64,000 nucleotides of DNA from Crocinitomicaceae bacterium. Its GTDB lineage: Bacteria > Bacteroidota > Bacteroidia > Flavobacteriales_D > Sanyastnellaceae. The DNA is taken from NCBI GenBank assembly GCA_002722795.1, contig PBMY01000014.1, forward strand, positions 62,001 to 126,000, in the 5' to 3' direction. This document shows, piece after piece, positions 14,013 to 45,731 of the stretch; the stretch's first letter is position 1; every line of letters begins with the position of its first letter. A program made the translations under genes and the position numbers. The notes below the pieces were generated by a model that was given only the letters and a program-made list of their open reading frames with translations, was not told the DNA's origin and did not search any database.

Positions 14013-15350
14013 TTAGCATAGAGCTCCAAATGCAATTAGGAACATTAATAAATCACCAACGTTTACTACTCCATCATTACTCAGATCTGATGCACAATAG
14101 TTAATACAGCTAAACTCTGCAATCAAAATCAATAGATCTGCAATTGAAACAACTAGGTCGTTATTAAAGTCTGCAGGACAACCAGATTGAATGTTTGGCA
14201 AAACAAAGAAAACTCCACCCTCAATACTACTTACTGCAACAACACCAGAAGGGAAGAAAGGGTAGTTTGACCATGTACCATTAAAATGAGCATCGTCATT
14301 GGCAGGATAGATGTCAAAAAAAGCAGTTTCTTCCATTACTCCATTTGCAATATTTGAAATGTTTGCAATTCTCAGACCTGCTCTGTAATTACTTTGGTAA
14401 CATAGGTTGTCTACAATATATAGATTATGATCAATAGCATTTGTAGTACTTACATATGTGCCAATTAAAAAAGGACTACTTAAATCACCAACATCCCAAA
14501 TAAAAGTTGTAGTGTTGATACCGTCATAATATTCATCCAATTCATCACCTACAAGGAAGTAACGGTGGTCTTCAGTTAACCAACCCTGATGAGTGTATTG
14601 AGAATTACTATAAGTAGACGTACTGATTAAATAGGTATCAGATGGATCGCTTACATCTGCAATAGTAACAGTGTTCTCATTACAAGCAAATGCAATTTCT
14701 TTCCCTTGAAAATTTGAGTCTGGTCCATTGTAAACCACAACTTGTGCGTCGTGCGTATAACCATCCTGAGCGAAATCACCAACAAGAATTGGGTATAGCG
14801 GATCGGTTATATCCATTATATGAAGTCCACCCTCAAATGTGTTTGTTCCAACAGCATAAAGCATGTCAGTTTCCTCATTCACAACCAAGTTATGAGCTTT
14901 TGAAAAACCCTCGTAATGTGAACTCTCTTCAAATTCAACGGGAGGATTTGACACACTACTTAGTTGAGTTAAATCGAAGATTTGCATTCCATGACCATAA
15001 GCCTCTGAAACAATATATGCGTGGTTTTTTGCCACCTTAATATCCCTCCAAGTAGAGTTGGCTCCAGATGCTGAAAGATTTCCAATGAAAACAGGATTCA
15101 CAGGATCTGAAATGTCTATAAAAGCGGTTCCAGATTTACGACCTAGGATAGCATATTCTACACCTGTTTGTGGATCGACCCATCCCCAAACATCGTTAGA
15201 ACCAGTTCCTCCAACTTCAGAGCTTGGCATATAGGACATTAAATCAATGTTACTACATGGGAAGTCGCCTGCCATACCGTCAATGCAATTGGTTTGGGAT
15301 AGAGCAAAAGTGCTAAAACTCAAAGCATGAATGAATATAAATTGTTTCAT
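14013..15350 (-). CDS. Secreted LVIVD-repeat (choice-of-anchor B) protein with tandem dockerin-like C-terminus
   Basis: Exported protein of 445 residues. A signal peptide (to about residue 19) is followed by a beta-propeller-like body of LVIVD repeats (AFIDISDP, MQIFDLTQ, LHIMDITDP, VTIADVSDP, LRIANIS) typical of choice-of-anchor B proteins. The last 55 residues hold two EF-hand-like dockerin units (DFNND...AD and DLSNDG...GD), framed by four cysteines, the last being the terminal residue. The same module ends the nuclease encoded 9 nt upstream in the same operon. Function of the propeller is unknown. Confidence 0.85.
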   Translation of the reverse strand: MKQFIFIHALSFSTFALSQTNCIDGMAGDFPCSNIDLMSYMPSSEVGGTGSNDVWGWVDPQTGVEYAILGRKSGTAFIDISDPVNPVFIGNLSASGANSTWRDIKVAKNHAYIVSEAYGHGMQIFDLTQLSSVSNPPVEFEESSHYEGFSKAHNLVVNEETDMLYAVGTNTFEGGLHIMDITDPLYPILVGDFAQDGYTHDAQVVVYNGPDSNFQGKEIAFACNENTVTIADVSDPSDTYLISTSTYSNSQYTHQGWLTEDHRYFLVGDELDEYYDGINTTTFIWDVGDLSSPFLIGTYVSTTNAIDHNLYIVDNLCYQSNYRAGLRIANISNIANGVMEETAFFDIYPANDDAHFNGTWSNYPFFPSGVVAVSSIEGGVFFVLPNIQSGCPADFNNDLVVSIADLLILIAEFSCINYCASDLSNDGVVNVGDLLMFLIAFGALC

Positions 15351-15359
15351 ATGAGTTGT

Positions 15360-16787
15360 TTAACAATTGCTACCAAAGTCTGATAATATTTCTAAAATAT
15401 CACTAACAGCTACGAAACCATCACCTTCTACGTCGTAATTACATCTAGCCACACACCCAAATTCGCTCAGAGCAAGCAGGATATCTGAAACAGTAACAAA
15501 ACCATCGTCGTTGAGATCTGAACTACAGCCTGAAGGTTCAATGTTTTCGTTAACAATAATGGTTTGGGTTGCGGTTATTGTGTTTCCGCATTGGTCCATG
15601 GCTGTAATTGTTCTGATTATTTGGTGAGCAGCTGGGCAGGGGCCTCCAATTACCATCTCATCGACCATCATGACAGCATCAGAGCAATCATCAAATGCAT
15701 CTGGGAGTTCTAATTCTATGATATCTTCACTACAGTCAACAACTATTGTAGGAGAAAAATTTGTAAAGTAGGGTGGAGTCACGTCCATCACCTGCATTAT
15801 CTGAGTGAAAGTGGAGGTGTTTCCAACATTATCAACGGCAACGTATGTTCTCATGATCTCGTAATCGCAACCATTTGACACCCCAGAATCCGTGTAAGAA
15901 ATAGTAATGGGACTGCTCTCGTCTGAAGCTGTAATATAGATCTCCGAATTTGGATACTCGGCACAATCAAGATTGATCACCGATTCACCGGTGATGACGG
16001 GGCCATCGGTGTCGATGGCAGCACCTTCCCAAAACCACGCGTCCCAAACCAAGTCGGGATAATCGACGTACGGATTTCTGTTACCTTGTTGAGACTCTAC
16101 TTTATCATTTCTATCCTGTTCAGTTGAATCGACCGGGTCGTCTAAATGCCATTGATAAAGCGTTGTTGGATTCCCAATTTCTGAAATGCTACCAACCTCA
16201 TCTGGATACATTGTATAAAAATAGAAAATGGATCTAGCTATATTACCCTTATACTCCTCTCGAGGCTCCCACACACCGTTTGATTTTTCTGACCACATTT
16301 CGTGATTTGAAGGCATGTTGCCTTGAGATGTATATGTGTTTCCTATTATACCAAACCATTGTGCCGACGCATCGACTACCTCACCAAATGGGTAATTACT
16401 TCTTGCACTATTTGCATTTCCATGACAGGGCCTAAGGATGAAAATATCAGATTTCATAGGCTCTTCTGAACCAAAAAAACTTTGAGGAACTATGTGCTCA
16501 GCGTTTATTGGGTCGGGATATGTAACATACCCTCCATCTTGAGTGAATCCAGTGTAAATGCATTCTATTTCACCATCAAAATTGTCTATGTAACCGTACA
16601 TTTGGATTCGGGCTTGATTGTAACCTAAAGATTGATGGTGTCCCTCATGCCAATTCTCTTGTAGCCATTCTCTAAGCTCGTCGAGGTGTAAATCTGACGG
16701 AGGCGCAGTTTGGGCATACAGCATAGTTGCCCACACAAGAACGGAAAAACAGAGACTTAGCTTTTTTATTATTTGCATGGGAGTCAT
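15360..16787 (-). CDS. Secreted endonuclease I family nuclease with Ig-like region and tandem dockerin-like C-terminus
   Basis: Probable extracellular DNase/RNase of 475 residues. Signal peptide to about residue 26 (ending YAQ). The EndA/NucM nuclease domain covers about 35-235 with the His-Me finger motif NAEHIVPQSFFG and the downstream NANSARSNYPFG. Residues 240-415 are HYR-like beta repeats with DxCGN-type motifs and paired cysteines. The final 55 residues are two dockerin-like calcium loops (DLNDDG...SD, DVEGDG...SD) with four cysteines. Met1 or Met4 may be the start. First gene of a two-gene operon. Likely scavenges nucleic acids. Confidence 0.88.
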   Translation of the reverse strand: MTPMQIIKKLSLCFSVLVWATMLYAQTAPPSDLHLDELREWLQENWHEGHHQSLGYNQARIQMYGYIDNFDGEIECIYTGFTQDGGYVTYPDPINAEHIVPQSFFGSEEPMKSDIFILRPCHGNANSARSNYPFGEVVDASAQWFGIIGNTYTSQGNMPSNHEMWSEKSNGVWEPREEYKGNIARSIFYFYTMYPDEVGSISEIGNPTTLYQWHLDDPVDSTEQDRNDKVESQQGNRNPYVDYPDLVWDAWFWEGAAIDTDGPVITGESVINLDCAEYPNSEIYITASDESSPITISYTDSGVSNGCDYEIMRTYVAVDNVGNTSTFTQIMQVMDVTPPYFTNFSPTIVVDCSEDIIELELPDAFDDCSDAVMMVDEMVIGGPCPAAHQIIRTITAMDQCGNTITATQTIIVNENIEPSGCSSDLNDDGFVTVSDILLALSEFGCVARCNYDVEGDGFVAVSDILEILSDFGSNC

Positions 16788-40812: not shown

Positions 40813-40830
40813 ATTCCTCTGCGCAATTGC

Positions 40831-40838
40831 TATATTTG
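40831..40838 (+). promoter_or_regulatory. -7 box TATATTTG for the Cys-rich lipoprotein gene
   Basis: Exact TAnnTTTG match ending 4 nt before an in-frame ATG at 40842 and 22 nt before the next at 40860. It lies in the gap to divergent recJ. Confidence 0.45.
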
Positions 40839-40841
40839 GGC

Positions 40842-41828
40842 ATGCCGAAAATACACACAATGAATAAGAGCTTATCTATTTTCTTCAATTTTGTAACTGT
40901 TTGTTTAGCATTTACATCGATAATTTTTATGTCAGGATGTCTTAATGACGACAACTTAATTGGCGAAAATTGCTACGATGGGATATTGAACAACGGAGAA
41001 GAGCTAATCGATTGCGGAGGTCCAATTTGTGACCCATGTGATCCATGTGAAAACAACCTTTGGGATCCACTTTTAGGAGAACAATGGGTTGATTGTGGTG
41101 GAGATTGTGGTCCTTGTGACCCTTCTTTTAATGGTCAATTAGATCCAGGTGAGCTTGGTATTGATTGTGGTTGTGATGGATGTCCTGCATGCCCTGAGCT
41201 TTGTGGAGACGGACTACCAAACGGCTTTGAGGAAGGCGTTGACTGTGGTGGACCAGATTGTGATCCATGTCCAACTTGTGTTGACGGCGAAATGAACGGA
41301 CAAGAAATTGGAATTGATTGTGGCGGACCAGATTGTGATCCATGTCCAACGACTGGTGACTGCACAAACGGCCTTCAAGATGGAGATGAAACTTACATCG
41401 ATTGCGGTGGTTCATCGTGCCCTCCTTGTGAAGGCCAAATCACGTGGAAAGCAAATGGCACTCTATTTAATGGAGACGCTGAAGCAACTGCTTCAATGAA
41501 CGGAACGAGTATTGTTCTTGGGGGAGTTTCATTAACAACTGCTCAAATTGGATTTACAATTGAAGAACCAAGTGCTGGTTTTCAAAATGGAACAGTTGTA
41601 ACGATGAACACTGCAACTGCACCCGGCACTGCAGGAGCTTACGAATCTGTAGGTGGAGCCGATACATACTCCACTGCAAACGGAGGTAACATGACAATGG
41701 AACTTAACTACGTAGTCCCTGGCGGCGGCGGCGGTTATGTTATGGGAACATTTAGTGGAAATATGCAGAGCGCAGGAGGCTCTAGCGTTACAATTTCTCA
41801 GGGTTCATTCTCCATCCCAATTAACTAA
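40842..41828 (+). CDS. Cys-rich repeat lipoprotein with C-terminal beta domain
   Basis: Surface lipoprotein of about 328 residues. The signal ends in a lipobox (FMSGC). Residues ~40-205 hold six repeats of about 25 residues, each with an NG..NGEE-type acidic part and a DCGGxxCxPC knot; two copies are 26 nt identical at DNA level, 75 nt apart (41250 and 41325). The rest (~125 residues) is a Gly/Thr-rich beta domain resembling the DUF6252 type. An ATG at 40860 is an alternative start; 40842 is preferred because the promoter box ends 4 nt before it. The function is unknown; the repeats could bind metal or form disulfide-locked spacers. Confidence 0.72.
   Translation: MPKIHTMNKSLSIFFNFVTVCLAFTSIIFMSGCLNDDNLIGENCYDGILNNGEELIDCGGPICDPCDPCENNLWDPLLGEQWVDCGGDCGPCDPSFNGQLDPGELGIDCGCDGCPACPELCGDGLPNGFEEGVDCGGPDCDPCPTCVDGEMNGQEIGIDCGGPDCDPCPTTGDCTNGLQDGDETYIDCGGSSCPPCEGQITWKANGTLFNGDAEATASMNGTSIVLGGVSLTTAQIGFTIEEPSAGFQNGTVVTMNTATAPGTAGAYESVGGADTYSTANGGNMTMELNYVVPGGGGGYVMGTFSGNMQSAGGSSVTISQGSFSIPIN
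41250..41350 (+). repeat. Coding tandem repeat, 75-nt period
   Basis: The stretch at 41250-41275 recurs without change at 41325-41350. It encodes GGPDCDPCPT in two adjacent 25-residue units of the Cys-rich lipoprotein, suggesting recent duplication. Confidence 0.85.
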
Positions 41829-44573: not shown

Positions 44574-45731
44574 CTACTCCGCACCAATCATTGCGTCAAG
44601 CTCAGCCTGTAAAGCGTCAATCTGCGATTGTAATCCAGAAATAATCTGAAGCAGTTCTTGGCCATTTAGACTAATTCCACCACTTACTACCAAATCGCCA
44701 TTAACTAAAGTTCCATCACTACTTACCTCAAAGGCATTTGACCTATCACTCTCACTCTCACCATCACCAACTACAAATAGAGTTCCCACTCTATCAATTT
44801 CATTGAACTGCCCGACAACAGTTGAATATTGTTGATCAGCAGTCACGTTATAACCAATAGCAGCGCTTGCTGTAGCAGATGCGACAGCTCTTCTTCCTGA
44901 AGCATGAGAATAACTGCCAATAGATTCAGTTTGGTATCCTTCAGCGTGTGATGCAAAACCAGTTGCTACACTTTCGAATCCTTCAGAGTGTGCAGCATCA
45001 GCAAGAGCTGAAGTCCCTTCACCCTCAGCATGAGCGCATGTAGAATTAGCAACAGTGTTTCTATTCTCAGCGTGAGAATACAAACCACTTGCAACTGTAT
45101 TCCAACCCTCAGCATGGGAAGCTGTATTTGTCGCCTCAGTTCGGTATCCCTCAGCGTGGCAATAGTTTGAAGTAGTTTCTGTTTGATAACCCTCAGCATG
45201 TGATCCAGTCCCTGCAGCGTCAGTTTGAAATCCTTCAGAGTGAGCGGCGGTAGAAGTTGCATTTGTTCCTTCACCTTCAGCGTGAGAACAAATCCCTGTA
45301 GCGGTACAGTTTTGGTTTGAAGCATTACTGTAAAAGCCAGTTGCTAGGCTAAACCTTCCACTAGCATTAGCATAATTTCCAGTAGCAGCACAACCATCGC
45401 CTTGTGTTGATGTTCCTGTAATAACGACATTACCTTGAACTAGACCGGCTGAATTTTGCTGTCCTACAGGAGTGATATCTTCAAATACGGTTACTTCAAT
45501 TAATGTCTTAATACCGTCAACTGTAGTCTCGCCTGTTCCACCAAATTCAACGGGTAAAATACCCTCTGGCTGAAAGGCTTCGCCATAAGTCGGCAAGAAA
45601 CCAAGTAAATCTGTAGATCCAATACTTCCGTCACCATCAAAATCTGGATTATAAGGAAGGAGCTCATTATCTGATTGAGCAAAGGAGCCTATACTTAAAA
45701 GTGCAAAAAGGGGTAATAATAAATTCTTCAT
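44574..45731 (-). CDS. YadA-head-like 14-residue-repeat surface protein with dockerin-like N-terminal motif
   Basis: Secreted protein of 385 residues. Signal peptide to residue 18 (SFAQ), a single EF-hand/dockerin-like motif (DFDGDGSIGSTDLLGFL near 29-46), about 60 beta-rich residues, then roughly thirteen 14-residue repeats (about 112-300) of the SHAEGxxTxATGxx type, which form the left-handed beta-roll of YadA-like trimeric adhesin heads. A coiled coil of about 25 residues closes the chain. No YadA membrane anchor or type IX CTD is present. Probably a trimeric surface fibre or adhesin; export route unknown. Confidence 0.8.
   Translation of the reverse strand: MKNLLLPLFALLSIGSFAQSDNELLPYNPDFDGDGSIGSTDLLGFLPTYGEAFQPEGILPVEFGGTGETTVDGIKTLIEVTVFEDITPVGQQNSAGLVQGNVVITGTSTQGDGCAATGNYANASGRFSLATGFYSNASNQNCTATGICSHAEGEGTNATSTAAHSEGFQTDAAGTGSHAEGYQTETTSNYCHAEGYRTEATNTASHAEGWNTVASGLYSHAENRNTVANSTCAHAEGEGTSALADAAHSEGFESVATGFASHAEGYQTESIGSYSHASGRRAVASATASAAIGYNVTADQQYSTVVGQFNEIDRVGTLFVVGDGESESDRSNAFEVSSDGTLVNGDLVVSGGISLNGQELLQIISGLQSQIDALQAELDAMIGAE

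Follow-up and report, generated by a model that had tools for sequence, protein, structure and literature searches.

A dockerin-like C-terminal tail with a four-cysteine frame, alternating with the T9SS type A signal on exported proteins of one Bacteroidota family

Two neighbouring genes on the reverse strand of the window (the whole stretch of DNA that was analysed, 64,000 nucleotides) encode an LVIVD propeller protein and an endonuclease I, with the following features.

14013..15350 (-): ORF of an LVIVD propeller (choice-of-anchor B family), secreted, with a dockerin-like C-terminal tail; 445 aa, TIGR04312 502.7 bits, PF08309
14202..15290 (-): TIGR04312 choice_anch_B body, residues 21-383 of the LVIVD protein, from the NCBIfam profile
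14016..14180 (-): tandem dockerin-like tail of the LVIVD protein, 55 residues, Cys 0/24/28/54, Cys codon directly before the stop; NF041540 26.9 bits, cutoff 29
14136..14171 (-): EF-hand-like loop 1 of the LVIVD tail (DFNNDLVVSIAD), from sequence and conserved columns
14052..14087 (-): EF-hand-like loop 2 of the LVIVD tail (DLSNDGVVNVGD), from sequence and conserved columns
15294..15350 (-): signal-peptide-like N-terminus of the LVIVD protein (MKQFIFIHALSFSTFALSQ), read from the sequence
15360..16787 (-): endonuclease I with a HYR-like domain, secreted, with a dockerin-like C-terminal tail; 475 aa, PF04231 131.2 bits, PF23237 35 bits
16056..16613 (-): Endonuclease_1 domain, residues 59-244, PF04231
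15555..15749 (-): HYR_4C domain, best stretch, residues 347-411 of the endonuclease, Pfam
15363..15527 (-): tandem dockerin-like tail of the endonuclease, 55 residues, Cys 0/24/28/54, Cys codon directly before the stop; from sequence and an AlphaFold2 model
15483..15518 (-): EF-hand-like loop 1 of the endonuclease tail (DLNDDGFVTVSD), from sequence and conserved columns
15399..15434 (-): EF-hand-like loop 2 of the endonuclease tail (DVEGDGFVAVSD), from sequence and conserved columns
16710..16787 (-): signal-peptide-like N-terminus of the endonuclease (MQIIKKLSLCFSVLVWATMLYAQ from the fourth codon), from sequence; passes the signal-peptide heuristic

The first-pass annotation had described these as secreted, otherwise different neighbours sharing a 55-residue tandem tail whose last cysteine is the terminal residue. 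Coordinates and frame confirm this: the two tails align ungapped over 55/55 positions with 40% identity (E = 4.4e-9 in a whole-genome search with the endonuclease tail as query), each with two 12-residue EF-hand-like loops at residues 4-15 and 32-43 of the last 55. Apart from the LVIVD tail, the query matched 15 further places in the genome. The annotation saw no type IX CTD, and in agreement with this an NCBIfam search found no match at E <= 1 to TIGR04183 (T9SS type A CTD) or TIGR04131 (T9SS type B CTD) in either protein; no ChiA-type (type C) CTD model is among the families it listed. TIGR04183 is passed by 53 other proteins of the same genome.

Sixteen proteins of the source genome end in such a tail, ten in the tandem form and six in a single unit, all 0-3 residues from the stop, so coincidence does not account for the likeness of the two window tails. 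The four-cysteine frame is the commonest form of the tail, not a universal one: it is exact in 7/10 tandem tails, C1 is absent in one and C2 and C3 in two, and the six single-unit tails have the outer cysteine pair only. The first calcium loop can degenerate while the cysteine frame persists. Across the Flavobacteriales, 114/115 modules end within 5 residues of the stop.

A few related units occupy other positions. The window itself encodes an exported protein (44574-45731, minus strand) in which a cysteine-less single EF-hand/dockerin-like unit (YNPDFDGDGSIGSTDLLGFLPTYG) immediately follows the signal peptide. Head repeats like those of trimeric autotransporters and a coiled-coil-like end come next, and the protein has neither CTD nor dockerin tail. 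Two FISUMP-like proteins, ORFs of 266 aa (locus L258, where PF09603 is confirmed) and 378 aa (L103), likewise place a single dockerin-like unit just behind the signal peptide; no such unit, tail or CTD was found at their C-termini. A 722-aa ORF (L106) combines a tandem dockerin module near its N-terminus with a type A-like CTD at its C-terminus. Elsewhere in the window, a lipoprotein-like ORF (40827-41828, plus strand) contains a repeated cysteine motif, DCGGPDCDPC.

The cysteines of the tail vary in pairs. In a set of 216 Flavobacteriales and Planctomycetota modules, C2 is never found without C3 or C3 without C2, and the presence or absence of C1 matches that of C4 in 213/216, these being raw counts without correction for sequence relatedness. 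Because of this covariation, and because the own-genome modules without C2 and C3 retain C1 and C4, the disulfides are most likely C1-C4 and C2-C3, rather than one inside each loop. A set of 87 distinct exact-frame modules, with 50% mean pairwise identity, shows no change at the loop-end aspartates D4, D15, D32 and D43. The earlier claim of selection on two disulfides and on the calcium loops stands on these two observations, with the pairing corrected as above. Type I dockerins have been described as having a head-to-tail clasp (PMC4728124). From it and from the dockerin fold we infer that C1 lies close to C4 in space; the outer disulfide would be a covalent counterpart of that clasp.

The tail is confidently predicted to adopt a dockerin fold. 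AlphaFold2 modelled the endonuclease tail from a 36-row alignment with a pLDDT of 96.5, and in a comparison with the PDB the leading matches were all dockerins, the best being the type II dockerin 2y3n_B (Z 10.1, rmsd 1.1 over 54 residues). As judged from profile matches, the module class is already catalogued as NCBIfam NF041540 (dockerin_GC, GC-type dockerin domain-anchored protein), which likewise has tandem EF-hand-like loops and framing cysteines at the protein C-terminus, and the Flavobacteriales frame is a variant of it. Positions 1-67 of the 67 of this profile align full-length to the last 55 residues of both window proteins; the whole proteins score 26.9 and 12.8 bits, both below the curated cutoff of 29 bits. 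The profile matches 19/20 exact-frame modules at E <= 0.01 and exceeds its cutoff in 9/12 genomes examined, several of them in the family of the source genome. PF00404 (Dockerin type I) gives 15.6 and 11.8 bits on the window proteins, below its gathering score of 22.9, and matches 12/20 family modules at E <= 0.01. In the literature collection searched by full text, no paper uses the name GC-type dockerin.

The source family is rich in these tails: 60/61 of its genomes match, with up to 74 matches each; two genera, g4 and g20, have 0-2. Genomes of the same order outside the family carry no more than one or two copies. Of 345 Bacteroidota genomes sampled, the two source-family members both match, and 1/343 of the others does so, weakly. 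Named matches are Flavobacteriales and Crocinitomicaceae MAGs, and Phycisphaerae and other Planctomycetota. NF041540 counts reach 52-141 in four Planctomycetota genomes, against 7-21 in five tail-bearing source-family genomes, 24 in the genome of L106 and 0 in genomes G003 and G020. The suggestion that the tail is special to one lineage fails for the class, which is very abundant in Phycisphaerae, and holds for the exact 0/24/28/54 frame and its expansion, which are almost confined to one Bacteroidota family. The frames differ slightly: C-x23-C-x3-C-x25-C in the window tails, mostly C-x24-C-x2/3-C-x24-C or a single Cys pair in Phycisphaerae.

The link to secretion proposed for the tail is borne out by signal-peptide-like N-termini on 124/140 tailed proteins versus 115/245 control ORFs. 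These calls come from a rough hydrophobicity rule rather than from trained software, and some of the control ORFs are spurious. The LVIVD N-terminus fails the heuristic because the rule forbids the His in its hydrophobic stretch. At the C-end, the tail and the type A CTD exclude each other. None of 193 tail-ended and 112 CTD-A-ended proteins carries both, and the same is true within the source genome, with 16 tail-ended and 52 CTD-A-ended proteins. Many type A CTDs are present in all 61 source-family genomes. Tail density and CTD density are negatively related by genome, a trend that falls short of significance when genera are compared (rho -0.36, p 0.11).

Homologous protein bodies can end in either module. 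TIGR04312 bodies carry the tail or CTD-A, with three label changes on their tree; the single-unit-tail rows L216/L219 are nested within a type A clade on starred branches and are 63% identical to a type A homologue. At locus L262 (G005:C43:195000-214900), three tandem paralogues with 57-60% identity end twice in the tail and once in CTD-A. In the source genome, the LVIVD protein of the window shares 49% identity over 373 aa with a CTD-A protein, and a second tail/CTD-A pair shares 40% over 886 aa; as exchange between own-genome paralogues is partly driven by shared GCTD-repeat domains, only long body alignments were counted here. We rejected a recent swap in the endonuclease I proteins (PF04231), whose tree has one deep split into a CTD-A and a tail subfamily. 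Inside the tail subfamily, genera differ in whether the tail is single or tandem, and the two forms alternate on orthologues. Separately, ten related TIGR04312 proteins (L067 and nine others) share a third ending, GREV....NQ.VF.LYSDG..EKKF, which is not a dockerin, falls below the TIGR04183 cutoff and is matched well by no family model.

The safest statement is that, on some exported proteins of the source family, this dockerin-fold, disulfide-locked tag stands in for the type A T9SS signal. Its position is precisely that of the usual secretion tail in related proteins, so an alternative tag for export or anchoring is probable. We lean, by somewhat more than an even chance, towards a tag that would sort Sec-exported proteins or anchor them at the surface from the C-terminus and would substitute for the type A signal. 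The tag would be built of two calcium loops and two helices; C1-C4 would clamp its ends and C2-C3 would fasten its linker. Once outside the cytoplasm it would bind calcium, become oxidised and so fold into a protease-resistant handle, and a surface or outer-membrane receptor, other than a Pfam-detectable cohesin, may recognise it; tagged proteins would then reach the outer membrane or beyond, as type A CTD proteins do. Several observations speak against this reading. The same class is abundant in Phycisphaerae, which have no SprA. The N-terminal single units (the two FISUMP-type proteins and window 44574-45731) do not suit a strictly C-terminal signal, and anchor exchanges on the trees are few, three in TIGR04312 and one, deep, in PF04231. 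The inverse trend between tail and CTD density lacks significance at genus level, and the searches for a receptor recovered none.

The predicted fold could instead mean a classical dockerin, whose cohesin partner would attach the proteins to a scaffoldin, on the model of cellulosomes or of the proposed planctosome, and cohesin-dockerin systems not tied to cellulose have indeed been proposed in Planctomycetes (PMC6461901). The tail shares with cellulosomal dockerins (PF00404; 2y3n_B) its fold, its two duplicated calcium loops and the bringing together of module head and tail; it differs in its 55 residues and in a probable disulfide clamp where they have a hydrophobic clasp. Their cargo is cellulolytic, whereas the cargo in the window is a nuclease and an LVIVD propeller rather than polysaccharide-degrading enzymes. 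Moreover, PF00963 cohesin has no match in the source genome (83% complete) and exceeds its cutoff in only 5/61 source-family genomes, irrespective of tail number, with a model that distant or diverged cohesins could escape. Of the sorting, anchoring or partner-binding tag first suggested, the tag-like C-terminal position holds up; the PF00963 search gave no cohesin partner that tracks the tail. Nor did the gene neighbourhoods point to another partner of the kind anticipated: no dedicated transporter or sortase-like gene recurs beside clustered tail genes, whose neighbours are mostly other tail genes plus unrelated genes. We regard the classical-dockerin reading as rather unlikely.

Could the tail be a genuine T9SS signal of new fold, read by the translocon or a shuttle like the type A, B and C CTDs? 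Its strict C-terminal position, its exclusivity with type A CTDs and its exchange with them on the same bodies would all fit, as would SprA, which is present in 7/7 source-family genomes tested and in the genome of L106. The T9SS also accepts type C signals, which are unlike in sequence (PMC10202324). Like the tail, the type A CTD (TIGR04183) is C-terminal on the same families of Sec-exported proteins; the two are unrelated in sequence and fold. The fold of the type A CTD is a beta-sandwich, whereas the dockerin tail is helical. The Phycisphaerae speak against this reading, with dozens to more than 100 copies of the module, and SprA is absent in 4/4 Planctomycetota genomes tested. Because the same class is abundant there without SprA, the T9SS would be unnecessary for the tag in Phycisphaerae, which argues against the module class being intrinsically a T9SS signal. 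In addition, the tail is missing from nearly all other sampled Bacteroidota, and a PorV-family member as its cognate shuttle was rejected, as tail-rich genomes have no extra PorV-family genes. We regard a genuine T9SS signal as unlikely. That the source family took over a dockerin-fold, disulfide-locked tail as a new T9SS signal class, with the T9SS reading a helical calcium-binding fold besides the beta-sandwich, is a doubtful proposal.

Least probable is that the tail, folded by calcium and locked by disulfides, is a stabilising cap with no other role than to shield exported proteins from carboxypeptidases: two disulfides would clamp the chain end, the first calcium loop can degenerate under a lasting cysteine frame, and single-unit and tandem tails do alternate on endonuclease I orthologues, but the exclusion of tail and CTD-A at C-ends, the exchange with a sorting signal and the expansion in one family would all be left unexplained.

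The class itself is known (NF041540); the present analysis describes the frame, the family-wide expansion, the coupling of the cysteines and the tail exchange. These genomes provide natural swaps, close secreted relatives with either a T9SS signal or the tail, which open the idea of a dockerin as sorting signal, and the search for its receiver, to direct experiment. As a T9SS signal, the tail would add a further signal type of unrelated fold. If it is not, it would represent an undescribed surface-anchoring route common to Planctomycetota and Bacteroidota.
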